From a virus, in IMG/VR virus record IMGVR_UViG_3300000227_000026, positions 1 to 27,164 of that record: a DNA stretch of 27,164 nucleotides, one strand, 5' to 3'. Position 1 is the stretch's first letter, and the number at the start of each line of letters is the position of its first letter. This document shows positions 8,707-27,164 of the stretch, in pieces. The notes under the pieces were generated by a model. That model was not told the DNA's origin. It did not search any database and was given only the letters and a program-made list of their open reading frames with translations. A program made the position numbers and the translations under genes.

Positions 8707-8740
8707 TGGAAATGAATTAGAAATAAATCGGAGAATGAAT

Positions 8741-9901
8741 ATGAATAAAAATGTATCTTTTATTGAAAGAAATGAAAACTACCATAAGAGATATGGGCAT
8801 CTCGTAGAAGGCGTTAAATCTCAGGTAACTGGTAAAGTTATAGATCAGATTATGCAAAACAAAATGGAAATTTTGATGAATAATCTTATGGAAATGCGCT
8901 GTCAGGAATATGGTGTCGATATTAATAATATTAATATTGCGGAACTTCATGAACAGACTGCAAATAGTGGTATTGCATACGTTGTTAAAACCGAACTGGC
9001 TATGATTGATAAGATTTTCCCTAATCTTCTGATGAATGAAATTGCATCAATCCAGCCACTCGATGAACCAACAAGTACTATTTTTTACACTGATATTCAG
9101 CGTGAAGATGGTACTTCAGTTTCTTCTGCAATTCATACAAATAGAACTTATGGTGATAATGTAGAATATAATCCTTCTGCTCCACAGGCTATCAAAGAAT
9201 TAAATTATGTTATTACTTCTGACACTATTACCACCACTGAAAAGAAACTGAAAGCTTCTATCACCATTGAAGTACAACAGGATTTGCTTAGACGACATGG
9301 TAAAAATGCGGAATCTATCATGACCGCTAACCTTGCTTCTGAAACTGTTCGTGAGTGGGATAGAATGGGTATTCAGGCAATGTATGATGGTGCTACTGGT
9401 GGAGCTGCTGTTTTTAACAAAACAGAACCTTCTGGTCTTGCCTATGAAGATAGAAAATACTGGATGGAAACGTTGTATGAAAAAATGATTGATGTTGATA
9501 ATTCAATTTTTAAGAAAAGATATCGCAAAACCAATTTTATCATTTGTGGTGCCGATGAAGCCGCATTCATTGAAAAAATGCAAGGCTTTAGACCAGTTGA
9601 AGGCGATGTAACTACACAGATGATTGCTACTGGTGGTCGTTATTTTATGGGAACTTTGAAAAACCGCTGGAGAGTATTCGTTGACCCGTTGGAATCAGCA
9701 GGTAAAATTCTGATGGGTTATAACAATCCTTCAAAATGGGAAGAAACTAGTTTCGTATTTGCACCTTACATTCTGGCTTATATGTCACCTTGGTTTGTCA
9801 ATCCTGATACCCTTCGCCAAACTCGTGCCATTCTCTCAAGAGCTGGTATGAAAGTAGTTGTTGGTGATCTTCTTGGTGTAGTTACAGTAACTTCATCGTA
9901 A
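8741..9901 (+). CDS. Major capsid protein (T4 gp23-like, HK97 fold)
   Basis: This 386-residue protein follows protease and scaffold and has the features of gp23-type capsid proteins. A charged N-terminal arm of about 70 residues is followed by AYVVKTELAMIDKIFPNLL and IQPLDEPTSTIFYTD, which matches the gp23 strand near the E-loop, and by a C-terminal domain ending in NPDTLRQTRAILSRAGMKVV. The start is taken at 8741, since GGAG (8730-8733) is seven bases away; the ATG at 8735 touches the ribosome site. A likely maturation cut is after E71 in ELHEQ. The gene uses CAG for about 10 of 14 glutamines, whereas terL uses mostly CAA, as expected for very high expression. It stands alone between its own promoter and terminator. 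Confidence 0.9.
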   Translation: MNKNVSFIERNENYHKRYGHLVEGVKSQVTGKVIDQIMQNKMEILMNNLMEMRCQEYGVDINNINIAELHEQTANSGIAYVVKTELAMIDKIFPNLLMNEIASIQPLDEPTSTIFYTDIQREDGTSVSSAIHTNRTYGDNVEYNPSAPQAIKELNYVITSDTITTTEKKLKASITIEVQQDLLRRHGKNAESIMTANLASETVREWDRMGIQAMYDGATGGAAVFNKTEPSGLAYEDRKYWMETLYEKMIDVDNSIFKKRYRKTNFIICGADEAAFIEKMQGFRPVEGDVTTQMIATGGRYFMGTLKNRWRVFVDPLESAGKILMGYNNPSKWEETSFVFAPYILAYMSPWFVNPDTLRQTRAILSRAGMKVVVGDLLGVVTVTSS

Positions 9902-9913
9902 CTTTAACATGAT

Positions 9914-9947
9914 ATAGAGGGTGGATTTACCACCCTCTATTTTCTTG
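9914..9947 (+). terminator. Strong intrinsic terminator after the capsid gene
   Basis: ATAGAGGGTGG (9914-9924), loop ATTTA and CCACCCTCTAT (9930-9940) pair perfectly over 11 bases, with a GC-rich core, followed by TTTTCTT. It ends the capsid transcript just 13 bases after the stop. The next gene begins only 14 bases beyond the stem, so it must rely on read-through or an unseen promoter. Confidence 0.93.
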
Positions 9948-9954
9948 TAATAAA

Positions 9955-10551
9955 ATGTCAGAAGATTTTGTAAAAATAAAATACACTGATTGTTATGAAA
10001 AGTTATTAGTTATAATAGACAGATACAATTTTACAAAAGAATTTATTAGAAATGAATGGACTTGGGTACCAAAACATGTAGCGGTTAAACTATTAAAAAA
10101 CAATTATTTCATAACAGAACAGGATATTATCTTTAATCCTGATATTTTTAAAAAAGCCGGGTTAAAAATAGGATTAAAGAGATTTGGTGCGTATGGTGAT
10201 TTATTGCAATTGGTTCCTATTGTTAAATATCTTAAGCGCACAACAAATAATAAATATTATTTATTAACAAACGATTGTTATATAGAAGATTTCAAAAAAT
10301 ATAACATATTTGATGATGTGTTTAAATCAAATAAAGCTAGAAATTGGTTTGATAAAGTGATATTCCTAGATGGTGTTCTTGAGAAAGATCATAGCAATTC
10401 AAACCATGAGCGATATTTACACAGGATTCATATCGTTGAAGAATTTTTTAATATAAATTTAGATTATTATGATTTTTCTGTGAATATCAATAGTTCTGAT
10501 AAAAAATATGTATCAGAGATGTTAACAAATGCTATCTTACAACAAAAGTAA
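9955..10551 (+). CDS. GT9-like N-terminal domain protein (half glycosyltransferase)
   Basis: The 198-residue product carries the N-terminal Rossmann domain of heptosyltransferase-type (GT9) enzymes. The segment GLKRFGAYGDLLQLVPIVKYLK (from residue 73) contains the family G-D pair at G81-D82, and the block VLEKDHSNSNHERYLHRI matches ILEKDHSLENNENHQHRV in the next gene. Those two stretches show the genes are paralogues. This one ends where the donor-nucleotide domain would begin, so it is either a truncated copy or a partner subunit. No Shine-Dalgarno precedes the ATG, which lies right behind the capsid terminator, so expression is expected to be low. The 3' end overlaps the next gene by 23 bases in another frame. 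An enzyme lacking the second domain is unlikely to transfer sugar alone. Confidence 0.65.
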   Translation: MSEDFVKIKYTDCYEKLLVIIDRYNFTKEFIRNEWTWVPKHVAVKLLKNNYFITEQDIIFNPDIFKKAGLKIGLKRFGAYGDLLQLVPIVKYLKRTTNNKYYLLTNDCYIEDFKKYNIFDDVFKSNKARNWFDKVIFLDGVLEKDHSNSNHERYLHRIHIVEEFFNINLDYYDFSVNINSSDKKYVSEMLTNAILQQK

Positions 10552-11575
10552 ATTAACACAACTGATTTATTCACCAAAAGATTTTTATCCAATATCTGTT
10601 CATCCCAATATGATAGTCAATCTTTCTGGTTATAAAGATATAGATAGTTTAGCATTTGCTCCATTTTGTACAGATGTTTTAAAAGGTACCAATACTGTAA
10701 CCATACACAGAGATTATGCACTTGGTGATTTAATTCAATTGGTTCCAGTTGCTAGATTGATTAAAAAAGAATTTAATATTAAAACAGTAAATATCATAAC
10801 AAGCACTAGATTTAATCAGGATTTATCTTATTGTTATTCAGATATACATTTTTGGCCTAAAGAATATTTAAATGGTTCGACAACTGGTTTACAATTTGGT
10901 TTTATTATTTCTACAAATGGTATATTAGAAAAAGATCATTCATTAGAAAATAACGAAAATCATCAGCATAGAGTTGCTATTTATTTGGAATTATTTGGAA
11001 TAGTTAATTTTAAAAAAGAAGATTTAAATTGGAAATGTACTATGAAGGGTGGGGTTATTTTGCCTAAATTACAAACAGATAAACCTCTAATAGGATTACA
11101 AATACGTGGTTCTGGGTATATGAAAACATTGCCTTCATGTATGATAAGAAGTATAGCAAATGAACTTTCAAAAAAATACTATGTAGTACTTATAGACCAA
11201 GATATAAATATGGGTTTTGATGGTAAAAATATAATTAATCTTTGTGGTAAACTAAAAATTCCACAGGTTATAGCTTTATTAGAAAAACTTGATTTGTGTA
11301 TTACAATGGATAGTGGTGTTTTGTGGATGTGTCATAGCGCAAATTGTCCAACAATTACTTTTTTGGGTTCAACTAGAGAAGCGGAAAGAATATCATTACA
11401 TCCACAATATCCAAAGAAGGCAAAAGCTATTGATTTGACAAAATATGTTGGTTGTGAGCCTTGTTTTGAGACAAGGGTTAGATGTGGTGGTAAGATTCGT
11501 TGCATGAATGAAGTGAATTATGATATGATAAAAGACGAATTACTTGAAAAAGTAAAATCTATTATAGGAGTTTAA
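10529..11575 (+). CDS. GT9-family glycosyltransferase (heptosyltransferase-like)
   Basis: This 348-residue protein shows both GT-B halves of the GT9 family. The N-domain has YALGDLIQLVPVARLIKK with G66-D67, the position of the proposed catalytic aspartate in WaaC/WaaF. The C-domain has PLIGLQIRGSGYMKTLP (187-202), then ITMDSGVLWMCHSANCPTI with D261-S-G at the donor-binding loop, and the cysteine-rich end CEPCFETRVRC with CM (309-326), typical of heptosyltransferase relatives. It should transfer a sugar from a nucleotide donor. Substrate is unknown: it could decorate virion proteins, host surface glycans or phage DNA bases. It overlaps the half-GT gene upstream by 23 bases and is followed closely by a methyltransferase, forming a small sugar-modification cassette between capsid and neck genes. 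The ribosome site (AGAG) is weak. Confidence 0.8.
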   Translation: MLSYNKSKLTQLIYSPKDFYPISVHPNMIVNLSGYKDIDSLAFAPFCTDVLKGTNTVTIHRDYALGDLIQLVPVARLIKKEFNIKTVNIITSTRFNQDLSYCYSDIHFWPKEYLNGSTTGLQFGFIISTNGILEKDHSLENNENHQHRVAIYLELFGIVNFKKEDLNWKCTMKGGVILPKLQTDKPLIGLQIRGSGYMKTLPSCMIRSIANELSKKYYVVLIDQDINMGFDGKNIINLCGKLKIPQVIALLEKLDLCITMDSGVLWMCHSANCPTITFLGSTREAERISLHPQYPKKAKAIDLTKYVGCEPCFETRVRCGGKIRCMNEVNYDMIKDELLEKVKSIIGV

Positions 11576-11578
11576 ATA

Positions 11579-12445
11579 ATGGGTAGAAAAAAGAAAAATT
11601 ATGACAAACCTGTAGAAGAACAACCAAAAGTCAAAGATAATTTATTAGAATTTGGTGATCTTGAAACAGAAGCTATAATTAGTGGCGATAATGAACTTAC
11701 AATAACAGAATCAAATAATTTTGTTGTAGACTCAGAAGCTATTATTCCAGAAGAAGTAACAGAAGAAATGAAATTAGAAGAATCTATTAGCACATCAGAA
11801 ACAGCAGTTAAAGTTTCTGATGTTGTTGTTAAGACAACTATGGAAGATTATGAGAAGATTTTTAATGAAGAATATTTCAATAATCTGAAAGAAAAAGGTT
11901 GCGATTATACTGCTTATGGTAAGTGGCAAGAAGCATATTGTGGTGTTTTTCAAAGAGCATTTAATCTTAGAAATAAAACCATATTAGATGTAGGTTCTGC
12001 TTATGGTTCTATTAGTTTTGGTTTTAAAATGCAGGGTGTTATGTCTGTAGCTGTTGATGTTGCTAAATGTTTGGTTGGTAAAACATTTAGAGGTATTAGA
12101 TTTGTTAATGCTATGGCTCAACACATGCCAGATATTGATAATAAAACCATAGATTTTATTCATTGTTCTTATGTTTTAAATTATATACCAAAAAATGAAC
12201 TTGTTGATACTTTTAAAGAATTTAAGCGTGTTATAACAGATCATGGCAAAATTCTTGTTATTTTCAACAAAGGTAATGATAATGTATCTGGTATTAATCA
12301 CATGCACACAAATGAAACAGTAATTAATGCAGCAATTGAAGCAAATTTAAAGCTGTTTGAATGTAAAGAAATATTAAAACATTATGATGACCCAGAATAC
12401 AGGTTTATCCAGTCTTATGATTGGAATATCCTGTGTTTTGAATAA
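11579..12445 (+). CDS. SAM-dependent methyltransferase with acidic N-terminal tail
   Basis: The C-terminal two thirds of this 288-residue protein form a class I (Rossmann) methyltransferase: motif I ILDVGSAYGS (135-144), the acidic end of strand 2 at D160 in VAVDVAK, motif with IDFIHCSYVLNYIP (191-204) and VITDHGKILVIF (218-229). It resembles small-molecule or sugar methyltransferases rather than DNA methylases, since no DPPY/NPPF catalytic motif is seen. The first ~85 residues are a low-complexity, acidic, probably disordered tail starting MGRKKKNY, unusual for the family and possibly a tether to virion or partner. A good GGAG ribosome site precedes the ATG, four bases after the glycosyltransferase stop, so the two are co-translated and likely act on one glycan. 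The target is not known. Confidence 0.8.
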   Translation: MGRKKKNYDKPVEEQPKVKDNLLEFGDLETEAIISGDNELTITESNNFVVDSEAIIPEEVTEEMKLEESISTSETAVKVSDVVVKTTMEDYEKIFNEEYFNNLKEKGCDYTAYGKWQEAYCGVFQRAFNLRNKTILDVGSAYGSISFGFKMQGVMSVAVDVAKCLVGKTFRGIRFVNAMAQHMPDIDNKTIDFIHCSYVLNYIPKNELVDTFKEFKRVITDHGKILVIFNKGNDNVSGINHMHTNETVINAAIEANLKLFECKEILKHYDDPEYRFIQSYDWNILCFE

Positions 12446-12460
12446 TTATATATATTTCTT

Positions 12461-12490
12461 GGTTGGTAGTCTTACAAAAGACTACCAACC
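12461..12490 (+). terminator. Hairpin after the methyltransferase gene, weak terminator or processing site
   Basis: GGTTGGTAGTC (12461-12471), loop of eight bases, GACTACCAACC (12480-12490) is a perfect 11-base stem between the methyltransferase and adaptor genes. The following TTGAACAAAA has no U-run, so termination should be inefficient. It may protect or process the message, or partially attenuate transcription into the neck genes. Confidence 0.6.
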
Positions 12491-12515
12491 TTGAACAAAA
12501 ACAGGAGTTAGTTTT

Positions 12516-13193
12516 ATGACAATGGATGAATTCAAACAATTATTATCTGATTTTTATAATATGGACACCATTAATGTACCTCATCTTGATAATATCATAG
12601 CTAGGGCTATACGAAAATTATCCGAATTCTATCCATTTCTTGAAACAAGTTCTATATTTACTATATCAAATCAAACAAGATACACTATTAACCATAGTGA
12701 TCTTATAAAACTTGAGAATGTATATTATAATTCACCATATTCTGTAAATTCTTTTGGTGATTCTGATATAATAGATATCAGAAAACATGGTGGTTTCAGT
12801 TTATCTCAACAAATTACAGATATCTATGAACATGAAACACAGCGAAGAATTAAACCAGTAGATGCTAGAATTGTAAGTAATGATACATTTGACTTGATTC
12901 CTACACCAACAACGATAGAAACTGTTTATTATGAGTATTCAAGGTATAGAACAATAGATGAAATACCAAGAATATTTGAAGATGAACTTATTGCACTTGT
13001 TATTTACTATAAAAATGACCCAACGTATCAAAACAATCGTTCAGCAAATAATGGAAATGTATTTAACTTTGATAGACGTGGAAATACAACAGAATCATCA
13101 TCATTTACACCACAGAATGCCTATGATTTAAGAAAAGACGAATTAAAGTCTATTTGTGATGATATAAAAAAGAAGGTGAATAAACTTGGCTAA
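12516..13193 (+). CDS. Head-tail adaptor (connector) protein
   Basis: This 225-residue protein is the first gene of the neck block and shows the arrangement of phage head-tail adaptors that dock on the portal: N-terminal helices (MDEFKQLLSDFYN, then IIARAIRKLSEFYP), a beta-rich centre and a C-terminal helical pair with the LIALVIYYKNDPTYQ and ELKSICDDIKKK segments. The stretch PTTIETVYYEYSRYRTIDEI resembles central strands of such adaptors. A good AGGAG lies eight bases before the ATG. The last eight bases overlap the next gene. Identification rests on gene order between capsid and tail tube and on the fold pattern, not on a catalytic motif; a general virion structural protein is the alternative. 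Confidence 0.6.
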   Translation: MTMDEFKQLLSDFYNMDTINVPHLDNIIARAIRKLSEFYPFLETSSIFTISNQTRYTINHSDLIKLENVYYNSPYSVNSFGDSDIIDIRKHGGFSLSQQITDIYEHETQRRIKPVDARIVSNDTFDLIPTPTTIETVYYEYSRYRTIDEIPRIFEDELIALVIYYKNDPTYQNNRSANNGNVFNFDRRGNTTESSSFTPQNAYDLRKDELKSICDDIKKKVNKLG

Positions 13194-13788
13194 GTCTAAA
13201 TTCAACTTTTTTGAATTGAATATAGAAGGATTAGATAATTTTTTCAATTATTTATTAAGCTATTCAAAATCTTTTCAAAGTAAAGCAAAAAGAATTCTTA
13301 ACGGTGTAAATACAAAGAATATAAATCGTAAAATAAGAAAAATAGTTAAAACCACTATGAAAAATAGTTCAGAGTTTGAAATAAAAATGGGCAAAAAATT
13401 TAATACATTTGTTGTTGGTTCTTATTCTATAAGAAATATTTCCAAATCTGATACGGAAACATTATTCAAATTACATAATAAATTCGATGATAGTGGTGCT
13501 GATAAACAAATTGTTAAAACACACGGCTCAAATAGTTGGCGATTTTCAACAAAAAGTATGTTTTCTGTAATGAATAGAGGAAGGCGTAGTTATACTATAC
13601 CTTCAGATGGTAGTAAAAGAAAAATGGTATGGATATGCCAAAAGGGAGCATTTGTTGGTAAAGTAATAAGAAAAACTGGCCCACTTCAAATACCAGCATT
13701 TGGTGGATTTAATTTTATTTCACAAATAGAAGATAATATAAAACATTGGTTTTCAACAATTCAAGACAAATTTTTAAATTTAAAATAA
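13186..13788 (+). CDS. Neck/tail-completion protein (HK97 gp10-like position), TTG start
   Basis: The 200-residue product is basic in its N-terminal half and lies where head-closure or gp10-type tail-completion proteins are encoded, between adaptor and terminator. The first good methionine codon is far inside (residue 58), while the TTG at 13186 has a fine AAGGTG ribosome site seven bases upstream and overlaps the adaptor stop by eight bases. I therefore take TTG as the start (MAKSKFNFFEL). Seen features are helical N-terminus, then a beta-rich part with SWRFSTKSMFSVMNRGRRSY and a closing helix FNFISQIEDNIKHWF, similar in outline to HK97-gp10-like proteins, which end in a helix and have a small core. 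Function is inferred from location. Confidence 0.6.
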   Translation: MAKSKFNFFELNIEGLDNFFNYLLSYSKSFQSKAKRILNGVNTKNINRKIRKIVKTTMKNSSEFEIKMGKKFNTFVVGSYSIRNISKSDTETLFKLHNKFDDSGADKQIVKTHGSNSWRFSTKSMFSVMNRGRRSYTIPSDGSKRKMVWICQKGAFVGKVIRKTGPLQIPAFGGFNFISQIEDNIKHWFSTIQDKFLNLK

Positions 13789-13803
13789 AATTGGTATAAT
13801 ATT

Positions 13804-14274
13804 ATGTCAAAAAAGGAAGATATTTTAAACAGAGTTGAATCCATTTTAAAGGCTATTCAAACAACTAACACTTACGATGGTGTTAATTTTTTCAATAACA
13901 ATATTGGTTATGTTGATCGTCAATATATCAATATAACAGAAGATGATATTTTACATAAACCTAATAACTGGATTATATTAAATAATGAAGGAGAAGAATT
14001 TAACGCATTACCTGGTGGAGTATTTGAAAATAAAATAAAAATACAAATTGTTTGCTTCACAAAAGCAAACGAAAATTCACCAAATTTAGATAGTATAATG
14101 AATAGCTTGCAAAAAGATATTTTTCTTGCTATCATAAAAGATGAAACATTGGGTAAATTATGTGATTATGTTTTGCCAATCCTTATTGAAACTGTAGATG
14201 AAATGATTTATCCTTATGGTGGGTTTGTTTTCTCAATGGAAATAGTCTATGCGTTCAATAAAAGTAATATATAA
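13804..14274 (+). CDS. Tail terminator-like protein
   Basis: This protein has 156 residues: N-terminal helix (EDILNRVESILKAIQ), a beta strand set, a middle helix (LDSIMNSLQKDIFLAI) and a final strand FVFSMEIVYAF. This matches the alpha-beta fold order of tail terminator proteins (lambda gpU, SPP1 gp17) that cap the tube and join it to the neck. It lies just before the tail tube gene, which is the usual place. It has no Shine-Dalgarno; the sequence TGGTATAAT stands directly before the ATG, so a leaderless transcript is conceivable but more likely it is chance in AT-rich DNA. It ends 11 bases before the tube gene. Confidence 0.6.
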   Translation: MSKKEDILNRVESILKAIQTTNTYDGVNFFNNNIGYVDRQYINITEDDILHKPNNWIILNNEGEEFNALPGGVFENKIKIQIVCFTKANENSPNLDSIMNSLQKDIFLAIIKDETLGKLCDYVLPILIETVDEMIYPYGGFVFSMEIVYAFNKSNI

Positions 14275-14285
14275 GGAGTAAATTT

Positions 14286-15266
14286 ATGCGTGGAACTGGT
14301 TCAAAAAGTGCAGTTGTTTTTACGCAGGAAGCTACATGGGGAACAATGGATACAACTCCCCAAGCTATACATGGTATAAATTACCGTTCGATTAATCTAG
14401 GTGGTTCTAAAAATACCTTCCAGTCTGAAACTATTAACAGACAACGTGCTGTTGTAGGACTTGCTGATGGTAATAAAGCTGTTCAGGGTAGTATTGTTAC
14501 TGATTTTTTACCAGAAGGTCTTGAAATTCTTATTAGACATCTTCTTGGTAAAGGAACAGTATTAACAACAGGCTCTGGGCCATATACTCATGTTCTTAAA
14601 GGTTCTGTTGATACTCTGGAAGGTCTTTCAATCCAGAAAAGTTTCACAAATATTAATAAACATTTCCTGTATCTTGGTTGTCGTGTTAATGCTATGGATA
14701 TTGATATAGTTCAGGAAGGTTTTCACAGTGTTACGTGGGATTTAATTGGCAAAACCGAAACTGTTCATAATATAGAACAAATTGATATTGATACTGCTAT
14801 ATATCCTACCAAAAACGGATTTACTGGTTATCAGGTTACTATCGAAACCGATCACACTGGTTCATGGGTTGCTCTTGGTAAGTGTGTATCAGGTTCAATC
14901 AAGATTGCAAACAATATTGAAACAGATGGTTATGTTCTTGGTAGCGATGAACGAGAATCAGCAGAATATGGTGTAAGAAACTGTTCTGGTAATTTTTCAA
15001 TGTTTTTTGAAGATACAGAACTTTATGCTCTATATACTGCTGGAACCGAATGTGGTCTGAGATATGTGTTTAATAATGGAACTGAGTCTGTCACAATCCA
15101 ATTCCCGAAAGTTAAACTTGGTGGTGAAAGTCCTTCTATTGATTCACCGACTGGTGTTAATCTGAATTTCACTTTCCAAGCACGATATGATGCTACCAGT
15201 GCTACCGATGTCATTGTAACCATCGTTAACAGCTCTGCATCTATTGAGCTTCAGGAAGGTGAATAA
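14286..15266 (+). CDS. Tail tube (major tail) protein
   Basis: The 326-residue protein builds the stacked hexameric rings of the tail. It has the composition and layout of the phage_tube_2 family: N-terminal GTGSKSAVVFTQEATWGT, long loop with ETINRQRAVVG, then alternating strands (VTWDLIGKTE, SGSIKIANNIET, CSGNFSMFFED) and a closing jelly-like strand set. The gene has the excellent AAGGAG ribosome site and, like the capsid gene, favours CAG and GTT-type codons, so it is probably strongly expressed. Slightly longer than many tube proteins, which may reflect an added surface domain. It follows the terminator-like gene and precedes chaperones and tape measure, as is standard in siphoviruses. No sheath gene is near. 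Confidence 0.85.
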   Translation: MRGTGSKSAVVFTQEATWGTMDTTPQAIHGINYRSINLGGSKNTFQSETINRQRAVVGLADGNKAVQGSIVTDFLPEGLEILIRHLLGKGTVLTTGSGPYTHVLKGSVDTLEGLSIQKSFTNINKHFLYLGCRVNAMDIDIVQEGFHSVTWDLIGKTETVHNIEQIDIDTAIYPTKNGFTGYQVTIETDHTGSWVALGKCVSGSIKIANNIETDGYVLGSDERESAEYGVRNCSGNFSMFFEDTELYALYTAGTECGLRYVFNNGTESVTIQFPKVKLGGESPSIDSPTGVNLNFTFQARYDATSATDVIVTIVNSSASIELQEGE

Positions 15267-15355: not shown

Positions 15356-15784
15356 ATGGGTCTTAAAAGTATTATCAAACAGAATCGTGTTTCTGAAGTA
15401 GCTTTTGATGAAAAGTTTGGTGTATTTTTCCAGTTGGAATTTTTGCACAAATCAGAACTTCAGAAGATTACTGCTCTTTACACCAAGAAAGCTATAAATC
15501 CTCATACAAGACAGATGGAAGATGATCTTGATTTTGAAAAAATGAAAAAGGTTATCTTTGAACGCTGTGTAAAAGGCTGGAAAGGTATGACTTACCGCTG
15601 GCTTGCTACAAAAGTTCCTCTGGATCTTTCTTCTGTAAATCCAGATGAAGAATATCCATTTTCACAGGAAAATCTTGCAGAGCTTGTAGAAATAATGTAT
15701 GGGCTTGATAGTTGGATTTTTGACTCTATTAAAGATGCAGCAAACTTTCAAGATGAAATCGAAAAGGCCGAAATAAAAAACTAA
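15356..15784 (+). CDS. Tail assembly chaperone, short form (lambda gpG-like)
   Basis: This 142-residue acidic protein is located between tube and tape measure and ends on a shift-prone sequence, as tail assembly chaperones do. The N-terminus (MGLKSIIKQN) leads to a beta/alpha domain with FGVFFQLEFLHKSELQKI and a C-terminal helical part; the final residues EKAEIKN are coded by GAA ATA AAA AAC before TAA. These proteins coat the tape measure during tail assembly and are not in the finished virion. A TAGGAG ribosome site precedes the ATG. A fraction of ribosomes should shift back one base on AAAAAAC and continue into the following frame, giving a 277-residue long form. Confidence 0.85.
   Translation: MGLKSIIKQNRVSEVAFDEKFGVFFQLEFLHKSELQKITALYTKKAINPHTRQMEDDLDFEKMKKVIFERCVKGWKGMTYRWLATKVPLDLSSVNPDEEYPFSQENLAELVEIMYGLDSWIFDSIKDAANFQDEIEKAEIKN
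15775..15781 (+). promoter_or_regulatory. -1 ribosomal frameshift site (A AAA AAC)
   Basis: The heptamer A AAA AAC is in the correct phase (X XXY YYZ: codons AAA, AAC, then the stop TAA). Slipping back one base moves ribosomes from the short chaperone frame into the next frame, which is open from 15757 on. An AAAAGG, possibly a Shine-Dalgarno-like stimulator, lies eight bases upstream. No compact stem within the usual 5-9 bases downstream was seen; a weak TTTACA/TGTAAA stem begins 23 bases away. Confidence 0.85.
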
Positions 15785-16188
15785 TTGATTTTGCAGAGTG
15801 GTTGTTTACACCCGGTAGAGGTAGTTGTAAAGATTGTGAAGAACATTACAAATTTAAACATAAAACCAATCCAGATAAATACCCAAATGATCAACCACCT
15901 TGCATATTATCATATGAATGTCCATTTGGTAAACCTACATTAACAGTTAGAAATGGATATATATTCGATTTATATCAGAAATGTGCTCATCAACAGATAA
16001 TGGCTGGTATGGGTCAGCCGATTGGAATAATTTTTCAATCTATCTTGGCACTTTTCGATATTTATGGTATTATTGATACATACGAAAGACGTGAAATATT
16101 TGAAAAAATTCAAATAATAGATCATATTCGTTTGAAAGCTGCTGCTAGTGACTTAGTAAACAAAAGGACAACCAAAACTAATAAATAG
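15781..16188 (+). CDS. Tail assembly chaperone T domain, reached by -1 frameshift
   Basis: This frame is open from 15757 and has no convincing start of its own: the first candidate, TTG at 15802, lacks a Shine-Dalgarno. Joined at 15781 it adds 135 residues beginning LIDFAEWLFTPGRG to the 142 of the short chaperone, for a 277-residue fusion equivalent to lambda gpGT. The T part has a cysteine cluster, CKDCEEHY followed by PPCILSYEC, that may bind zinc, and then helical segments (RREIFEKIQIIDHIRLKAA). In lambda the T domain contacts the major tail protein while the G part holds the tape measure. The stop codon lies inside a hairpin before the tape measure gene. Confidence 0.8.
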   Translation, partial: LIDFAEWLFTPGRGSCKDCEEHYKFKHKTNPDKYPNDQPPCILSYECPFGKPTLTVRNGYIFDLYQKCAHQQIMAGMGQPIGIIFQSILALFDIYGIIDTYERREIFEKIQIIDHIRLKAAASDLVNKRTTKTNK

Positions 16189-16213
16189 AGATACATTAAA
16201 TATGTATCTCTAT
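16185..16213 (+). promoter_or_regulatory. Hairpin spanning the chaperone stop and the tape measure leader
   Basis: ATAGAGATACAT (16185-16196), loop TAAAT, ATGTATCTCTAT (16202-16213) form a perfect 12-base stem. The chaperone stop TAG lies in the first arm. The tape measure ribosome site begins 12 bases after the stem. There is no solid U-run, so it may act in translational coupling, processing or weak attenuation rather than termination. Confidence 0.6.
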
Positions 16214-16237
16214 CTTATGCTTTTAGGAGTTAATAAA

Positions 16238-19200
16238 ATGGCTGAAAAGAAAATAACAGAATTTTATCTGAAGTTAAAGTTAGATGCTGAATCATTTAAA
16301 ATGGTTGATACACAACTTAAAAATATGGCTAAGTCATTTAAATCTCTTGAAAGCAAGATTGAAGAAGCTGGAAAAGGTATTCAATCGAAAATAAGAATGG
16401 CTTTTTTTGGTAAGACAGGCTCAAATACAACAATTAGTTCTTTTTTTAGAACTGAATTTAAAAATATGGCTACAACAATTAGTAATGAATTTAAATCTAC
16501 AATGACAACTGTTGCAGCACAAGTACAGAAAACAAACGATGTTGAGTTTGGTAAAATAGTAAACACAATGATTAAACACATTCAATCATTGGAAAAACAA
16601 ACAATAAGTCAGACAGAAAAAAGTAAAAGTAATATAGCTAAGATTGCTGCCGGTGCTGCTGCACCATTCGGTGCAAAATATTTATCAGCAAAAGATTATC
16701 GTTCATTTTCTGGTAATAAATTTTTTAGACAGGAACCTAATTTAATTAATTTTAAAATATTAACACCAGAACAAAATATTGCTACAAAAATGGCATTAGA
16801 ACAAGATTTATATATAGCAAAAGAAATGGAAAAAACAAAAAAATCTATAGATATTATAAATAAAAATATAATAACTGTAGTTAAAAAGATGAAAAGTCCA
16901 TTAGAACTAATCAACGAACAATTTAATGTACAAAAGTCTGCTGCTTTGCAGTCTATGGCTAAATACTATGGTGATATAGAAAGAAAACAAATAAAAGAAC
17001 TTAATAAATTGGAAAAAAGAGTAAAAGAAGCAGTAAAAAAAGTAACAAATCTTGGTTCAGGTAATATAAAAGGATTTATAAATGACAGCATTATAAATAA
17101 GGGAAACCGAAATGTAATGCAAGATATGAAGGATTATTATACAAAACAGTCAAAAGATACTCTCATGAGTGCTATTAAGCTTGATAATTTACGTGCTTCA
17201 AATTACTGGAAAACACAAGAAAAAATGTATCAAGGTGATTTAAAAATAGAAAATGCTAAGAAAAAGGCACTAATGGATAATATTAAGCTTGGAGTACAAG
17301 CTGCAAAAAATTACATGGATTATCAGGAAAAAATTTATAAAAATGAACAAAGAATAGTAAAACAAAGTTTTAACGTTGTTCAAAGTGGTACATTTGATAG
17401 AATTAAAAACAAAATGAATGAATTTTTTGTAAATAGTTCAAATTTCAAAACGACTTATATTAAAATGTTTGAAGGTGTTTATAATGCATTTAAGAATATA
17501 TTAACATATATTAAAACTTTTAGTAAATTAATAATTGGTATTGGTGTTAGTGGTGTTGCTGCATTTACTGGTTTAAGTATTGCAATAAAATCATTTGGTC
17601 TTGGTATTATTACAACAACAGATAAAATGAGAGGATTCGAAATAGGTCTGCTTGGTATGATGAAAACCATGCCTGCTGTTAATAAACTTATGGAAGCTTC
17701 TTTTAAAGTTGCAGAAAAGTTACCAATTTCGTATGAAGAAGTATATCAATCGACAAAAGCATTTGCTCTTATCACACCATTAAGAACTATGTTACAGGAT
17801 TCTACTAAAGTACATGAAACTTTAAAAGATGCTTATCAAGTTATAATGGCATTATCACAGATAGAACCAGAATGGGGGATAGCTGGTGCTCAGTTCTCTT
17901 TTCGTGAAGCATTATCTGGTGATTTACGCTCATTACAAAGACGTTTTGAAATACCGGTTAATCTTATTTTTGATGAAAAAGGTACACCAATAACTAAATT
18001 TAAAAATAACCCAGAAGCAATCTTGAAAACCCTATCAAAATATCTTAGTAACTTATATGACAAAGCATCATTAGAAAAAGCATCAAGACAATTTTCTGTG
18101 CAAATTAATAAAATTGAAGGCGAATGGTTTAAATTCCAACAAACAATTGGTCAATCTGGATTTTATGATAAAGTTGTAGATAAAATTATTAATATAAGAA
18201 AACAAATTGAATTATTTACATCAACACAAACATTTCAAAAATTTACTAAATCTATATCAAATTCGCTTAGTTCTATAATTGATACTACAGAAAATCTTTT
18301 AATAGATAATTCTGGTGGGCTTCTTAAATTATTAGGAATAACTCCTAATATTGAAAGTATCACAGAAAATATATCTAATGTTTTTGAAACAATAACTGCT
18401 GCTTATAGAACATTCCAAAAAACTATAATGAGTAATGATGTAAAAAACTTTATTAAAAACACTATGGAATTCAGTAAAAAAATGTTTGAAAGTGTTTATG
18501 AAGAATCTGTAAAATTGTTTAAAGGAGTAAAAGCAGATTTAAAATTAGTAGCAGATGTTTTAAATAATACATTATTTCCTATTGTTGACAAACTTGTTGG
18601 TCTTGGTACAAGTGATATTATAAAACGTGGTGTACTTTATTCATTCTTATTTGGGCCGGGTAATATTATTAATATATTACTTGGTTTTAGTATGTCTTTA
18701 AAGACAGCAATAGAAATGATGAATATGTTAGGTCTTAGTGGGCTAAAAACTATAGCAAGTATAGCAGGAAAAATAACATTAGCAATTGCTTCTATTATGC
18801 TTTTATCGGATACTGTAAAAATTATATTTGCAAGTATAGATAAGTCTATAGAAGGTACTACATTTTATAAAATGTGGGCTTGGCTTACTGGAAAAGAAAC
18901 AGTATCTAAATTAGAATCAAAACTGTCTAGTCTTTTAGGTAATTTTAAAGATGCAATTTCTTCTATAGACAATAAAACTATAATTTCTACAATTTCAAAA
19001 TCAACAGGATTAAAAGAAGATATAGTTGCTAAAAAATATCAAAACGCAGATTTTCTTGTTACAATTGGTACAAACCCAAAAGTTAAAAAATCTCTTTTAA
19101 ATATAATACACAGTGAATTAGATTTTATAAGGAATCATTATGCTAATGTTTCTGAAAAAGATATACCAAAATTGAGAGCCAGAGAAACAGAATTATTATT

Positions 19201-22200
19201 TTCTGAGAAAAAAATATCTGCTGTGTTTGATAACATTGATAAATCAAAAGATATTTTAATAAAAATAGCTGAAAAATTAAACAATTCATCTAAAACATTT
19301 GATCAACTTGATTTGAATTTATACATAGACAAAATAACTAAATCCATGGAATCTTTAAAAAATTCAGGTATTGGTGTGTTTGATACTGTTAAAGAATATT
19401 TAAAACCTATGGAAGCTGATGGTGAAGCTCAACTTAAATTGATAGCCAAAGAATTGATTAAATCAAGACCAGATGCTATTAGTGGTTTAACTAGAGAAAC
19501 AAAAATAGCTGGTGCTAGATTGGTTGATATATTTAAAAATGCTGGTTATGAACCTATAATGACAAGTGGCTATCGTAAAGGAGATACTGGTTCTGCTCAT
19601 AGTGTTGGTAAGGCAATTGATTATCAATTAAAGCTCAATGGAGAACCATTATCAACACAGGTATTAGAATCAGAATCTTTTGTAAAACTTATAAAAGATC
19701 TCAAAGCTTCTAATATGATTCAGAATGTAATATTAGAAGAAGGAAAACAACGTAAATTATCAGACGAGTTAATGAATAAGATTGGCCAAGACCCAAAACT
19801 TAAAAAGAAAGGCAAAGGTAATGAATTTGCTGTTCTTCACGTTGAAATAAAAGACTATATAGGAAAAGAACAGCAATTTATTACAGATAATCTTGGATTT
19901 ATTGGTAATATTGATAATATATTATCAAATGCTAATAAAATATTCAAAGATGAAATAGATAAAGGTTCTCAAAATATAGAACCTAGAACATTTAAACAAC
20001 CATACGAATCTTTAATAGAATTAAAATTATTTGTTCAGCAACCATTGGAAGCATTTAAACAGACTATAGACAACTATGAACAGTTTGCAGATATACTTAA
20101 AGATGGTGGCGTTTTTGATGATATAGACAAATTTTATAAATCTTTTGAAGAAGATAACGTATCTAAATTTGGTATAAATAAAATAGAAGATATAAAAAAA
20201 ACAGCAAATATGTTTAAACAAAAGATAAAAGATATTGGTTATTTATCTATAACATTAAATACAATAAGCAAAGAATTTGTAGATACTGCTATGCAATCAA
20301 AAGATAATAATATTGTTGATATAGCATTAACATCTGCACCAAAAATAATAAAACAGCTAAAAAGTATATATGATTTACCATTTATAATAGATGAAAATAC
20401 AAATAAAGAAATTGCAAGGATTGAATCTATATCTACACAAGTATGGAAAGATAGTTTACGTAAAAAATCATACAGTCTTATTGATTTAGCAAAACGATCA
20501 GCAGAAGAATTAGAAGTAGAATTATCAATGATTGTGGCTTCCGAATCTGCTTCTAAAGCTATTATTGATAGCGAATTAAAAACAAACGAACTTAAATCAT
20601 TTAACGATGATCTTAGAAATTTACTTTCTAAAATTTACATAACAAAAGAATCAATAGAAAAAGCTGCTGTTGATTTTATAAAAGAAAGCGATACAGACGC
20701 TATTAAATCATTGAAAAAAAAATACATAGAAATGTCTATAGCTCTTAGAGATGAAAACAAAGAACGATGGAAACGAATTGAATCTATTAAAGATGAAATA
20801 GCTCTTGTACAGAAAATGACTTCTATAAAACAATTAGAACCCAACTGGTCTGAATATATCACAAGTTCATCAAAAGAAATGCGTGACGCTGCTTTTACTA
20901 AATACAAAGACTTCTTAAAAGAAGGCCAAACACCTACTGGTGGATTTTCTGATGTGTTTATTGCTGGTATATTAGAATCACAATCAGAATGGCTTAAAAC
21001 TAGTCAACTGATGTATGAAACTGGTAAACAACTTAATGATAATCTTACATCTACATTTGAAACTGGTTTCTTTGATGTTATGACAAAAGGTATATCATCA
21101 ATTGGTAATATGTTTAAAAATTTATGGAATGTTGTTAAAAATACAATTCTTGGTATTATAGCTAAAATGCTCGCTATGTCTGCTACAAAACTGGTTCTTG
21201 GTATTGACATTCAAGGTGGTATTACTGGTAAAGCTTCTGGTGTTAGTGGTATAAGTAGTATTTTGAGTTCTGTTCTTGGTGGTGGTTCAAATGGTAGTAT
21301 TGGTGGTATATTTAGTGGTATGTTAGGTAATTTTGCCATTCCTAGTGTTGCCGGTGGTGCAAATAAAAATACCGTAGCACAGATGATGAATATAGGCACT
21401 GGTATAGTGGGTGCTACTGGTGGAATTGATCTTACAAGTTTGACAAGGGCTGGTGTTGCTGGTGCGGTTGCTGGTACCAAAGGAAGTGGTATTCTTGGCG
21501 CATTGAATCCAGTTAAAAAGTTTATTAAAGCATATCAAACCCCATTATTAACTACTGCTGCTATTGGTGCGTTTTTAACACAACCCGGTCGTTTATTTGG
21601 GGGTACTAAAGATAAAACTAAAGCTGCACAAGACTCTTATACTCTGTGGTCTGATAGAAGAAATCAACTTGTAAATAGACAAGAAACAGATGCACTTAAT
21701 TATTACATGAGTGGTTCATCTATAACAAATAGTATAATGGGTTATAATTTCCCCGGAATTGGTTATTCTACATGGTCATCTGGTGATGGTTGGTTTAAAG
21801 GCCCAAAAGAAAAACATGCTAATACTGATCCTTATGCTTACATAAATAGTCTTAAAAAATATTTTGAACTTTTATTAATATCTGGCAAAGAACATTATAA
21901 TAAAATGTTTGAAATTAATAAACTTGCAGAAATTAATCAGCTTAAATCACTTAAAATGCAAAATGAATTAGATAAGAACAAACTTGATATTATCCAGAAA
22001 CAATATAATTATTATACGTCTGGTGATTATGCTGATCCAGATAAATTAGCAAAAATAGATGAATGGCGTGATAACTTACTCAATGCTCAGTATGAAAACA
22101 AACAATTACAGAGTGAAATAGTTAAACTTGAAAAAGAAACTGGTTATAAACAAATGGAATATCTCGCTTATGCTCAATGGAATGGCGAAAATCAAATAGC

Positions 22201-23836
22201 TATGATGAAAACTAATATTGAAATTGAACGAGATAAATTAAAAGCTTATGAAAATGGAACCATAGAATGGTATGACGCAAAGTTAAGTTTAATGCGATCA
22301 GAGAAAGAACTTGCTGATAATTTAAAAGAAATTAGTAAACAAGCACAAGTAAGTATAAATAATGGTCTTAAATCTATTTATATGATGGGTGGTGATTTAA
22401 GCAAACTACCTTCAAATCGTATAATTAGTAATACTGGTATACCAGACTATTCAAAATTACCAAAAGGTATACGTCCCAATCTTCAAATTAAACAATTAAG
22501 TTCTCTTGAAAGTTATGTAGAAAGAATAAGAGCAATTGAAAATTTGCAAAAGGGTAATATAAATGACCACTATATGAGTATTGGTGGTGCTTCTAGTATA
22601 ATGGTTGGTAGTGGTAAATTTTACGACCAATATTATCAATCAAAATATACGGGAGATGATGTATCCGTTGAAGAAAAATATCGCGATTGGTTTAATTCGG
22701 AATTGAAACGAATATCTGATATAGGTGGTAAAGTAATAGATACACAATGGGTTAATCCAGAATTTTATAAAAACAATATACCCAAAGGTACTACTCCTAT
22801 AGGTCAAATAAATTATAAAATTGCAGTAGAAGAAATGGTCAAAGGCTATAATATGACTGTTTCTGAAGTTATTGAAAATATTAATAAAGAAATTGAAAAA
22901 ACTCTTGTTCAATATCAAGCAGAAACGAATATCAACAAAAACAAACAAGCTGCTGTTGATGCTTTAACCAGTGTTGATAATAGTATAAAAGAACAATATT
23001 CATTGTTATATCAATCTTTTAATAATTTAATGAATGATGTTTACATGACATATGATGAAAAAGATAAAGCTTATTTAGAAATAGGTGAAAGTTTATCAAA
23101 ATTTTATCTTGATCTTGCTAACAATATTAATTCGTTTATGGATGCTGGTTTAATATCAGAAGATGATTATCTTGTAAATAATTTTAAATATTATATAAAT
23201 CGTGGTTTTAATGAAGTAGCCTTAACTCTATATGATAATATAAAATTAGCTGCGAATAAAGCTAATTTAAAAGGTGATATTCTTACTACAATCAAAGATA
23301 TGAATGATTTTAGTATTGTAAACGAAGTGCTTAATATGCCAGAAATGAAAGATGTAAGAAAGCAGTTAAATTTGATTCCTAATATAGAAAAATATCGTAT
23401 TAATGATATGTTATTCACAAAAGAAAACTATAATCTTGGTGGTAACTTTCAAGACCCATATCAAATGTGGTTTGATTATCAAAAAGAAACAATTCTTAAT
23501 AGGATAAATAATGCCGAACGTGAATCTGATGACTGGTTTGCTGCTCAATCTGATCTGTTTAATTTGATGATAGAAAATGCTCAGAAGATGAAAGAAAAAG
23601 CAAAAGAAGCTCAATGTAAAATGGAAGATATATTTAATAAAATAGAAGAAACAATGAAAATGAGAGTGGCAGAAGAACGAACTACACAAAAAGGTGATAT
23701 AATTTTTATGGATGTTGGTTCTAGTCGTGATGCTCAGAAAATGTTAGATAAAATGATATCCGCTGCTAAAACCAATGATCCAAGTGCAATTGCACTTATT
23801 GAAGAATTTAAAAAGAAAATGTTGGGAATCAGGTGA
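16238..23836 (+). CDS. Tape measure protein with embedded M15-type peptidase
   Basis: The tape measure fixes tail length and later helps DNA entry. The start is the ATG at 16238, eight bases after AGGAG (16225-16229); an upstream in-frame ATG at 16202 lies in a hairpin and has no ribosome site. The 2532-residue product has a helical, coiled-coil N-terminal part, a hydrophobic segment at about 431-452, a second hydrophobic region at about 800-867, an enzyme domain at about 1070-1210, long coiled coils, and a glycine/alanine-rich hydrophobic stretch at about 1620-1790 as in lambda gpH. The enzyme domain has TSGYRKGDTGSAHSVGKAID and later LHVE, giving zinc ligands H1121, D1128, H1201 and catalytic E1203 of M15 (VanY/endolysin) peptidases. 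At 0.15 nm per residue the tail would be about 380 nm long. Confidence 0.93.
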   Translation: MAEKKITEFYLKLKLDAESFKMVDTQLKNMAKSFKSLESKIEEAGKGIQSKIRMAFFGKTGSNTTISSFFRTEFKNMATTISNEFKSTMTTVAAQVQKTNDVEFGKIVNTMIKHIQSLEKQTISQTEKSKSNIAKIAAGAAAPFGAKYLSAKDYRSFSGNKFFRQEPNLINFKILTPEQNIATKMALEQDLYIAKEMEKTKKSIDIINKNIITVVKKMKSPLELINEQFNVQKSAALQSMAKYYGDIERKQIKELNKLEKRVKEAVKKVTNLGSGNIKGFINDSIINKGNRNVMQDMKDYYTKQSKDTLMSAIKLDNLRASNYWKTQEKMYQGDLKIENAKKKALMDNIKLGVQAAKNYMDYQEKIYKNEQRIVKQSFNVVQSGTFDRIKNKMNEFFVNSSNFKTTYIKMFEGVYNAFKNILTYIKTFSKLIIGIGVSGVAAFTGLSIAIKSFGLGIITTTDKMRGFEIGLLGMMKTMPAVNKLMEASFKVAEKLPISYEEVYQSTKAFALITPLRTMLQDSTKVHETLKDAYQVIMALSQIEPEWGIAGAQFSFREALSGDLRSLQRRFEIPVNLIFDEKGTPITKFKNNPEAILKTLSKYLSNLYDKASLEKASRQFSVQINKIEGEWFKFQQTIGQSGFYDKVVDKIINIRKQIELFTSTQTFQKFTKSISNSLSSIIDTTENLLIDNSGGLLKLLGITPNIESITENISNVFETITAAYRTFQKTIMSNDVKNFIKNTMEFSKKMFESVYEESVKLFKGVKADLKLVADVLNNTLFPIVDKLVGLGTSDIIKRGVLYSFLFGPGNIINILLGFSMSLKTAIEMMNMLGLSGLKTIASIAGKITLAIASIMLLSDTVKIIFASIDKSIEGTTFYKMWAWLTGKETVSKLESKLSSLLGNFKDAISSIDNKTIISTISKSTGLKEDIVAKKYQNADFLVTIGTNPKVKKSLLNIIHSELDFIRNHYANVSEKDIPKLRARETELLFSEKKISAVFDNIDKSKDILIKIAEKLNNSSKTFDQLDLNLYIDKITKSMESLKNSGIGVFDTVKEYLKPMEADGEAQLKLIAKELIKSRPDAISGLTRETKIAGARLVDIFKNAGYEPIMTSGYRKGDTGSAHSVGKAIDYQLKLNGEPLSTQVLESESFVKLIKDLKASNMIQNVILEEGKQRKLSDELMNKIGQDPKLKKKGKGNEFAVLHVEIKDYIGKEQQFITDNLGFIGNIDNILSNANKIFKDEIDKGSQNIEPRTFKQPYESLIELKLFVQQPLEAFKQTIDNYEQFADILKDGGVFDDIDKFYKSFEEDNVSKFGINKIEDIKKTANMFKQKIKDIGYLSITLNTISKEFVDTAMQSKDNNIVDIALTSAPKIIKQLKSIYDLPFIIDENTNKEIARIESISTQVWKDSLRKKSYSLIDLAKRSAEELEVELSMIVASESASKAIIDSELKTNELKSFNDDLRNLLSKIYITKESIEKAAVDFIKESDTDAIKSLKKKYIEMSIALRDENKERWKRIESIKDEIALVQKMTSIKQLEPNWSEYITSSSKEMRDAAFTKYKDFLKEGQTPTGGFSDVFIAGILESQSEWLKTSQLMYETGKQLNDNLTSTFETGFFDVMTKGISSIGNMFKNLWNVVKNTILGIIAKMLAMSATKLVLGIDIQGGITGKASGVSGISSILSSVLGGGSNGSIGGIFSGMLGNFAIPSVAGGANKNTVAQMMNIGTGIVGATGGIDLTSLTRAGVAGAVAGTKGSGILGALNPVKKFIKAYQTPLLTTAAIGAFLTQPGRLFGGTKDKTKAAQDSYTLWSDRRNQLVNRQETDALNYYMSGSSITNSIMGYNFPGIGYSTWSSGDGWFKGPKEKHANTDPYAYINSLKKYFELLLISGKEHYNKMFEINKLAEINQLKSLKMQNELDKNKLDIIQKQYNYYTSGDYADPDKLAKIDEWRDNLLNAQYENKQLQSEIVKLEKETGYKQMEYLAYAQWNGENQIAMMKTNIEIERDKLKAYENGTIEWYDAKLSLMRSEKELADNLKEISKQAQVSINNGLKSIYMMGGDLSKLPSNRIISNTGIPDYSKLPKGIRPNLQIKQLSSLESYVERIRAIENLQKGNINDHYMSIGGASSIMVGSGKFYDQYYQSKYTGDDVSVEEKYRDWFNSELKRISDIGGKVIDTQWVNPEFYKNNIPKGTTPIGQINYKIAVEEMVKGYNMTVSEVIENINKEIEKTLVQYQAETNINKNKQAAVDALTSVDNSIKEQYSLLYQSFNNLMNDVYMTYDEKDKAYLEIGESLSKFYLDLANNINSFMDAGLISEDDYLVNNFKYYINRGFNEVALTLYDNIKLAANKANLKGDILTTIKDMNDFSIVNEVLNMPEMKDVRKQLNLIPNIEKYRINDMLFTKENYNLGGNFQDPYQMWFDYQKETILNRINNAERESDDWFAAQSDLFNLMIENAQKMKEKAKEAQCKMEDIFNKIEETMKMRVAEERTTQKGDIIFMDVGSSRDAQKMLDKMISAAKTNDPSAIALIEEFKKKMLGIR
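19430..19860 (+). other. M15 peptidase domain inside the tape measure gene
   Basis: The stretch coding for residues ~1065-1208 has the M15 signature: SGYR, then SxHxxGxAxD (SAHSVGKAID, H1121 and D1128), and HxE (H1201, E1203). All zinc ligands and the catalytic glutamate are present, so it is probably active. M15 enzymes cut D-Ala-D-Ala or L-Ala-D-Glu bonds in peptidoglycan peptides. Within a tape measure it would open the cell wall locally during DNA injection. Confidence 0.85.
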
Positions 23837-24589: not shown

Positions 24590-24599
24590 GGTGGAAATC

Positions 24600-27164
24600 A
24601 TGCTTAGAATTCATACTACAATAGGTTCAGTTGATTATTATTTTGCGTCTGAACCATTAGACTATGATAATAAATACTGGGAACCAAGGATTGTAGATAG
24701 TTTTTCATTAATTCGTTATTTCCAGATGAGCGAAAATACTGGAAATAGAATTAGAACTATAAATATAGAGCTTGGTAATCATGATAATTATTTTGATACT
24801 TTACAGACAAATTATGGACTTTTAAATCAGAAATTTACTTTGTATTATGATGATGGTTCAAACGTAACAAAGAAGTTTGTTGGTCGTGTTAATAAGATTG
24901 ATTCTTATGGAAGTACAATAAGACTAACACTTCGTGAAATAGGATATGAATATTTAGATACTCCATTTCCAGATGCACAAATAGCTTATGACTATTATTC
25001 AGAAAATGGGATAAATGAATCTTGGAACGCTGTACCTATTCATTTTGGTTATGTTTACCGTTTTCCTTTGGCTTGGATAAATCTTGCTTTATCACAATTC
25101 ATGGTTGGTTCTGGCCCGATATACAAAGTTTCTAAAGTCTATTTCAATAAAGAAATAGTGTATGATGAGGCTAGTGGTATAAATGGTTACAAACCAACAA
25201 ATGATTCACGTAATATTAAGGTTCGTATTTATCGTGGCACTGGTTCTAGTGGTAGTCCTGAAATTGTTGATGGAATAGAAAGTGATTGGCCCGGATTTTC
25301 CTATGTAGAATTCTACTATGAAGATGATGGAACACCAGCAGTACCTTTATTAACAGATGGTGCTACTGCACAAGTTTATGCTGATATTCAGGGTATTCAA
25401 AATTCTGTAGATTCTGCACCTGAAAGAAATCCTGCCCAGATAATCTATAATATACTTACAAAACCAACAACTGAATACGAAGGTTATGGTCTTGGTATTA
25501 ACTCTGGTGATGTTGATTTTTCAAGTGCAATAGCAGAATGTGCTACGCAAGCTTTTTATATAGATGGAACCATTAATCAGAAACAGAATTTTGGTATATG
25601 GCTTGATGAACTATTAAGAAGTTGTAGAGGTATATTATATGAAGAAGATGGAAAAATAAAACTTACAATAGATAGTTCTCGGGATACTGTTGCTGCTGCT
25701 TTTGATGAAAGTGGTGAAAATGGTTATAATTGTTTTGTTGAACCTTGGACTGAACCAGAATTAGAAGCACAGATTAATAGAATGAAGCTCAGTTATGATT
25801 TAGAGGCAGAAAGTGGTAAATTTAGAAAAAAACCTGCTGTGAACGAAGAATCACCACTTGGCGATACAAATTTAATTAATTCTACACATGCAACAAGAAT
25901 TGGTAAATGGAATACTTCTGAAATAGAATTCAGATTGATCTCTGATGATCACACGGCACATAAATTAGCTCAATATTATTTTAAAAAAGGTATTTTACAA
26001 CTTAAAAGAGTAAAACTTACGGTAGAAAATGGAATACCATCTACATTAGACGCTGGTAATCTTATAACAATAACCGCTGGTAAATATGGTTGGTCTGCTA
26101 AGACTTTCCTTATTGAACAAATAGAAAAAACAGAAGAACACACAATAATTGATGCCAGAGAATATGATTCATCTGTGTACACTTATACACCTATAACACC
26201 AGCATCTTCACCAGAACAGAATCCATATTCTGCTTATACAAAACCAAATAAACCAGAAATGACAAGTTTGACATTATATAATGATATTTTGTCAGATGGA
26301 ACCACACAAACTAGACTTAATTTTCAGTTTGTAAAACCAATAAACAATGTTATGCAAATTGCTGTGTTTTACAAATTAAACACAGAGCCAGAAAGTTCAT
26401 TTAAAGCTATTGGTAGTACAATAGATGAAAACTTAGATATTATTTGGCAAGGATTAAATTCTGGAAATTATAATTTTAGAGCTGTATCAATTAGTCATAC
26501 CGGGTTAATGAGTGATTTGGGTATAGAAAGTGGTGATAAACATTATTATGGACAACCCAATACCGAAGCATATTTAACAATAACTGCTGATCAAATTGCA
26601 CCCGGTGTACCTATAATTAGTAGTATTGTACCGACAACTGGTGGTGTTACAATTTACTTAGATGTTACTGGTGGTATACCTGATGATTTTTCCCATTTTA
26701 AAATTTATAGAAAAATTGGTTCTGGTAGTGAAGAACTAATAGAAGATAGATGGACTACACAATTATTTAATGATAATGAACATGATCCTAATTATGAAGC
26801 CAGAAGTTATTCAGCTATTGCTGTAGATAAGACTGGTAATGCTTCTTCACAAAGTACTTATAGTTCTAGCGTTAATCCTTTACGAGTTGGTAATGCTGAT
26901 ATTACAACTTCAGAACAGATAATTGCTAAAGACTTTAGAACAGCGTTAAATGCTGGTAATGGAGTAATAAGTGGAATTGTATTTAATAGTATTGGTTTTC
27001 AAGCTTGGAATGGTGCAACAAATACATTTAATATAAATGCTGTTAATGGTAATGTCAACATGACAGGTACCATTTGTGCCTTGTGTGGTGTTATCGGTGG
27101 TTTTACAATTAGTTCAACAGAAGGTTTATACGCTGGAAATGGCAATACTCGTGTTCAAATGAAA
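24600..27164 (+). CDS. Tail-tip hub/attachment protein with fibronectin-like repeats, 3' end outside window
   Basis: An ATG at 24600, after AAGGTGGA overlapping the upstream stop, opens a frame that stays open for 855 codons to the window edge. The N-terminal ~520 residues resemble lambda gpJ/phage tail tip hubs: strands with IRTINIELGNHDNYFDTL, then PAQIIYNILTKPTTEYEGYG and FGIWLDELLRSCRGILYEEDG, the gpJ-like block in which a small helical insert ends in a Cys-Arg-Gly. Next come two fibronectin-III-like units (about 550-650 and 660-755; the second has FSHFKIYRKIG and YEARSYSAIAVDKTGNAS). The last part, ISGIVFNSIGFQAWNG with IGGFTISSTEGLYAG, resembles the trimeric stalk before a receptor-binding region. 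It should form the tail tip that recognises the host; the receptor part is beyond the window. Confidence 0.8.
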   Translation, partial: MLRIHTTIGSVDYYFASEPLDYDNKYWEPRIVDSFSLIRYFQMSENTGNRIRTINIELGNHDNYFDTLQTNYGLLNQKFTLYYDDGSNVTKKFVGRVNKIDSYGSTIRLTLREIGYEYLDTPFPDAQIAYDYYSENGINESWNAVPIHFGYVYRFPLAWINLALSQFMVGSGPIYKVSKVYFNKEIVYDEASGINGYKPTNDSRNIKVRIYRGTGSSGSPEIVDGIESDWPGFSYVEFYYEDDGTPAVPLLTDGATAQVYADIQGIQNSVDSAPERNPAQIIYNILTKPTTEYEGYGLGINSGDVDFSSAIAECATQAFYIDGTINQKQNFGIWLDELLRSCRGILYEEDGKIKLTIDSSRDTVAAAFDESGENGYNCFVEPWTEPELEAQINRMKLSYDLEAESGKFRKKPAVNEESPLGDTNLINSTHATRIGKWNTSEIEFRLISDDHTAHKLAQYYFKKGILQLKRVKLTVENGIPSTLDAGNLITITAGKYGWSAKTFLIEQIEKTEEHTIIDAREYDSSVYTYTPITPASSPEQNPYSAYTKPNKPEMTSLTLYNDILSDGTTQTRLNFQFVKPINNVMQIAVFYKLNTEPESSFKAIGSTIDENLDIIWQGLNSGNYNFRAVSISHTGLMSDLGIESGDKHYYGQPNTEAYLTITADQIAPGVPIISSIVPTTGGVTIYLDVTGGIPDDFSHFKIYRKIGSGSEELIEDRWTTQLFNDNEHDPNYEARSYSAIAVDKTGNASSQSTYSSSVNPLRVGNADITTSEQIIAKDFRTALNAGNGVISGIVFNSIGFQAWNGATNTFNINAVNGNVNMTGTICALCGVIGGFTISSTEGLYAGNGNTRVQMK

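Follow-up and report, generated by a model that had tools for sequence, protein, structure and literature searches.

A predicted M15-like zinc peptidase domain in the tape measure protein of a tailed phage

Several tape measure proteins (TMPs) carry cell-wall hydrolases, and the enzyme families differ. The closest described case is motif 3 (MT3) of the mycobacteriophage TM4 TMP, with the sequence G-W-R ... H-P-S-G-R-A-L-D ... D-H-V-H-V. Phage lacking the motif are viable but have shorter tails and are impaired in injecting DNA into stationary cells; a point mutant in the motif behaves similarly to the deletion (PMC1796659). The MT3 motif is also found in the bacterial protein VldE (Spr1875), an L-Ala-D-Glu endopeptidase whose zinc site resembles those of the M15 family, and homology to VldE makes TM4 MT3 a LAS-type zinc peptidase (PMC11667670). 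Relatives of MT3 occur in 755 phage records (actinobacteriophages); among the rows sampled, most carry a tape measure annotation. The other wall enzymes borne by TMPs, a GH23 transglycosylase in enterococcal phages and a CHAP domain in phiCbK (PMC10194240, PMC3556154), belong to families unrelated to the domain described here. Among free enzymes, the nearest are those of PF08291 (Peptidase_M15_3), which includes E. coli MepK/YcbK and many phage endolysin-type peptidases, and the T5 endolysin, an L-alanyl-D-glutamate peptidase of the M15C type (2mxz). A limited literature search found no published description of a PF08291-type domain in a TMP, and none of 60 phage records in a sampled list of matches to one M15_3 protein is annotated as tape measure.

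The DNA analysed here, referred to as the window, is a stretch of 27,164 nucleotides (C29:3406-30569, minus strand, of the 184-contig assembly G000) and holds the structural half of a tailed phage. The phage is incomplete, as the contig comprises only 30,866 bases. The structural genes are as follows (window coordinates):
2015-3985, large terminase
4004-5695, T4-type portal
7384-8628, S77 head protease (head maturation protease)
8735-9901, Gp23-type capsid protein
12516-13193, SU10-type adaptor
14286-15266, tail tube (PF18906)
15356-16188, tail assembly chaperones
16202..23836, + strand, TMP ORF, 2544 aa from the first ATG

The last ORF is assigned as the TMP from its position after the tail tube and tail assembly chaperones, its size and its hydrophobic segments (residues 440-470 and 850-879), and it aligns with the TMPs of two relatives. 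A second ATG at 16238 gives a TMP of 2532 aa, the form numbered in the initial annotation; because an earlier ATG is present in the ORF, residue numbers here are higher by 12. As a single sequence, the whole TMP has no significant match in Pfam, PHROGs or PDB. Similarly, tblastn with the domain or the TMP against 50,697 phage records, and contig scans of genomes with the domain and the conserved TMP segment, returned no relatives, and the sole match in a protein search of 98 genomes is the window's own TMP. Relatives do come from IMG/VR scans with the capsid, tail tube and conserved TMP segment, which yield a small group. Besides the window, two of its members reach through the TMP: L003 (TMP of 2786 aa) and L011 (2493 aa, on a 120 kb contig). 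A third, L002, is an 87% relative that ends before the domain.

The predicted peptidase domain lies in the middle of the TMP and has the following elements:
19469..19867, + strand, M15-like (LAS superfamily) zinc peptidase domain, predicted, TMP residues ~1090-1222
19565..19576, + strand, S1122-x-x-R1125, common to all three TMPs
19598..19621, + strand, H1133-x6-D1140, putative first two zinc ligands, within S-x-H-x2-G-x-A-x-D (codons 19598-19600 for H1133 and 19619-19621 for D1140)
19736..19738, + strand, E1179 in V-I-L-E, best candidate for the catalytic Glu
19739..19834, + strand, loop of ~32 residues from the E1179 strand to the strand of the last zinc His
19838..19846, + strand, H1213-V-E1215, putative third zinc ligand and an acid, H[VI]E in all three TMPs (codons 19838-19840 for H1213 and 19844-19846 for E1215)

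The His, Asp, His and Glu named in the initial annotation are thus all in place, as H1133, D1140, H1213 and E1215. The first three form the zinc ligand pattern H-x6-D ... H, which is kept in L003, while in L011 the spacing from His to Asp is three residues longer; comparable inserts occur in T5-type lysins (L065). Both relatives, although divergent, have the domain at the corresponding mid-TMP position with H, D, H and H[VI]E, and seven residues (S1122, R1125, H1133, D1140, E1179, H1213 and E1215) are invariant among three domains that share only 17-32% identity. Between the window and L011, 24 of 50 positions are identical in the block with the zinc motif, against about 7-13 of 50 in most neighbouring blocks; this better conservation than in most of the surroundings argues for functional constraint. 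The pattern of the three-sequence motif does not appear in 3 x 3000 shuffled TMPs. S1122 and R1125 correspond to S291/R294 of VldE and S71/R74 of VanXYg (the transition-state arginine), for which catalytic roles have been shown or proposed (PMC11667670).

Homology to M15 enzymes emerges with the relatives. The domain of the window, searched as a single sequence, has no significant match in Pfam, PHROGs or PDB. However, the L003 domain alone matches PF08291 with 24.7 bits (E 2.6e-5), above the curated cut-off of 23.2 bits, and reaches only 18.9 bits when searched within the whole 2786-aa protein. A profile of just the three TMP domains (window, L003 and L011), compared with an M15_3 profile of 37 sequences (36 PF08291 domains from genomes plus E. 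coli MepK), scores 44.5, with a probability of 93 and a P of 2.5e-7 for one comparison. In the controls, the same profile gives no more than 14.5 for stretches elsewhere along the TMP alignment and no more than 23.0 over 200 column shuffles. The match is confined to the domain's stretch of the TMP, and its strong part is local, covering only the half with S-x-x-R and H-x6-D; the second half of the domain was placed by the joint alignment and by a full-length alignment with MT3. Other members of the superfamily are detected at lower scores: T5-type M15C endolysins match the TMP-domain profile locally (31.1, shuffles at most 21.2) and MT3 domains match it over the full length (25.3, shuffled at most 17.3). 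The best PDB profile match is the T5 endolysin 2mxz (E 0.006). An AlphaFold2 model from a two-sequence alignment has a mean pLDDT of 59, with 70-86 in the core, and a Foldseek search with this model gave no significant match, the M15 enzyme VanY ranking 8, 9 and 28 (E 0.7-2.2). With ligands kept in the orthologues, the L003 match, the profile score and the absence of the motif from shuffles, the domain stands above chance, and the M15 type and zinc ligands read in the initial annotation are supported by orthologues and profiles. TMP residues ~1090-1222 are accordingly predicted, in fold and in activity, to be an M15-like zinc peptidase with M15_3 as the nearest Pfam family.

The domain shares S-x-x-R, H-x6-D and the third zinc His with M15_3 enzymes, which like the window domain have no HxH His, and one M15_3 branch has a Glu in the strand preceding that of the third zinc His, as found here. 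In contrast to M15_3, the domain sits in a TMP, its window copy is too divergent for a direct match, the loop of ~32 residues is absent from the M15_3 proteins compared, and an acid follows the last zinc His at H+2, as in M15C. With the T5 endolysin it shares the zinc motif S-K-H-x-x-G-x-A-x-D and H-V-E; the endolysin, however, is a free enzyme with a catalytic Asp three residues before the last His (H-3), whereas the TMP domain is embedded and lacks the acid that VanX, too, has there. MT3 is likewise a LAS zinc peptidase in a TMP, with the same order R ... H-x6-D ... strand ... long loop ... H, and the window loop resembles the long MT3 loop in position and length. They differ at the last ligand, which is D-H-V-H-V with HxH in MT3 and A-V-L-H-V-E in the window: the HxH His of MT3 and M15A enzymes is a Val in the window (V1211-L-H1213) and L011 (V-M-H), and H-L-H is found in L003 only. 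A pure MT3 assignment was rejected, as HxH is missing in two of the three TMPs and the profile similarity to MT3 is weaker than that to M15_3.

The position of the catalytic acid varies among M15 enzymes. In M15B/C enzymes it is at H-3 relative to the third zinc His, where the window has Ala1210; in M15_3 and hedgehog relatives it lies on the strand before the one with that His, and this strand holds E1179 here. In the joint alignment E1179 (V-I-L-E) shares a column with the glutamate (LI[DWF]E) of those M15_3 proteins that have DQ[LMV]I[DWF]E. The Glu chosen in the initial annotation, E1215, is at H+2 of the last zinc ligand, a position also occupied by Glu in M15C lysins (HFE/HVE). In the T5 lysin, the catalytic acid is the Asp at H-3 (D-G-G-H-V-E), despite its Glu at H+2. 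Given the M15_3 column, the Ala at H-3 and the use of an H-3 Asp by M15C enzymes that also have Glu at H+2, E1179 is favoured by the alignment and is probably the better candidate; a conserved Glu is thus present as the initial annotation held, and E1215 was probably the wrong one.

These comparisons point to a likely function as a tail-carried entry enzyme, an M15-like zinc metallopeptidase within the TMP that would cut stem peptides or crosslinks, and cell-wall penetration at infection is its most likely role by analogy with MT3. An M15 fold that has degenerated into a wall-binding or structural TMP module, still able to bind zinc or peptidoglycan but not to cut, would agree with the restriction of the strong match to one half of the domain, with the missing HxH His and H-3 acid and with the failure of single-sequence searches. 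It is nevertheless an unlikely reading, since TMPs so divergent in this domain have all kept the ligands, the Ser, the Arg and two acids, since the block around the zinc motif is more conserved than most of its surroundings, and since M15_3 enzymes also do without the HxH His.

Far less probable still are two explanations in which the wall is not the target. Some TMPs, such as lambda gpH, are cleaved during assembly, and a peptidase inside the TMP could perform such cleavage, on the TMP itself or on another virion protein. A maturation protease of this kind is highly improbable, as to our knowledge M15 and LAS enzymes act on peptidoglycan peptides with D-amino acids, a separate head maturation protease is encoded at 7384-8628, and the related MT3 domain acts at entry (PMC1796659). 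The least probable explanation, to which we give almost no weight, is that a structural stretch of the TMP unrelated to M15 happens to contain H, D, H and E. The lack of single-sequence profile matches and the low-confidence fold are what such a stretch would show, but an orthologue matches above the Pfam cut-off, the profile score lies far above those of shuffles and other TMP windows, and the motif recurs in three TMPs.

As an entry enzyme, the domain would be carried inside the tail tube with the rest of the TMP, which on cell contact would leave the tail first, so that the domain could fold in the periplasm. Zinc would be bound by H1133, D1140 and H1213, with R1125 and an acid (probably E1179) activating the water. 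Hydrolysis of stem peptides or crosslinks, at a peptide bond that may be L-Ala-D-Glu, D-Ala-mDAP or mDAP-mDAP, would then clear a way through the wall for the TMP/DNA channel. The phage is assumed, through binning, to infect the bacterium of the bin that contains its contig. The bin holds three penicillin-binding transpeptidase genes, two LpxC genes and one Omp85 gene, which fits a diderm host with peptidoglycan; a 16S search of the bin found none.

The initial annotation regarded an M15 domain in mid-TMP as an uncommon arrangement. This view is weakened by MT3 of the TM4 TMP, which belongs to the same zinc-peptidase superfamily: a LAS zinc peptidase in a TMP is already known, and the domain described here is a further, divergent example. 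What holds of the claim, within the literature searched, is narrower and concerns the PF08291-type enzyme. The domain adds a phage lineage of presumed diderm hosts and, by profile, an M15_3-type enzyme to the TMPs that carry wall hydrolases. TMP-borne hydrolases are probably under-counted, given that such domains can be missed by single-sequence searches and become visible only once divergent relatives are aligned. If the link to the M15_3 branch is true, it points to repeated acquisition of zinc peptidases by tape measures. A more specific scenario is speculative and rather doubtful: a siphovirus lineage with T4-type capsid proteins would have captured an M15_3-type peptidase in its TMP independently of the actinobacteriophage MT3 domains, and have acquired a comparably long loop beside the last zinc ligand. 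By analogy with the zinc-zipper loop of VldE, this loop might cover the active site until ejection.

The N-terminal parts of the related TMPs contain tandem repeats, of about 40 aa in two copies in L002 (11917-14580) and of about 25 aa in several copies in L011 (8684-16165), which the window lacks or in which it differs; such differences are a possible way of changing tail length. Upstream of the TMP gene, an AAAAAAC slippery heptamer (15775-15781) lies in the right phase directly before the stop of the ORF at 15356-15784, and the -1 frame is open at 15757-16188, which together fit a programmed -1 frameshift of the tail assembly chaperones. Within 4004-15266, a Phage_tube_2 tail tube is combined with a T4-type portal, an S77 protease and a Gp23 capsid protein, and no sheath gene was recognised within the window. 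Genes for a GT9-type glycosyltransferase (PF01075) and a methyltransferase lie between the capsid and adaptor genes (10529-12445); the pair is also present in L011, in the same order, and possibly serves modification of virion or host-surface glycans. Downstream of the TMP gene, a very long ORF resembling a tail-tip or fibre protein (24591-27164, running on into L007, G000:C29:1-3405) has cysteine-rich repeats containing GVYG near the contig end. At the other end of the window, the structural genes adjoin nucleotide-metabolism genes on the minus strand (79-1926), which encode an HD-domain protein, a ThyX-type thymidylate synthase and a dATP/dGTP diphosphohydrolase N-terminal domain.
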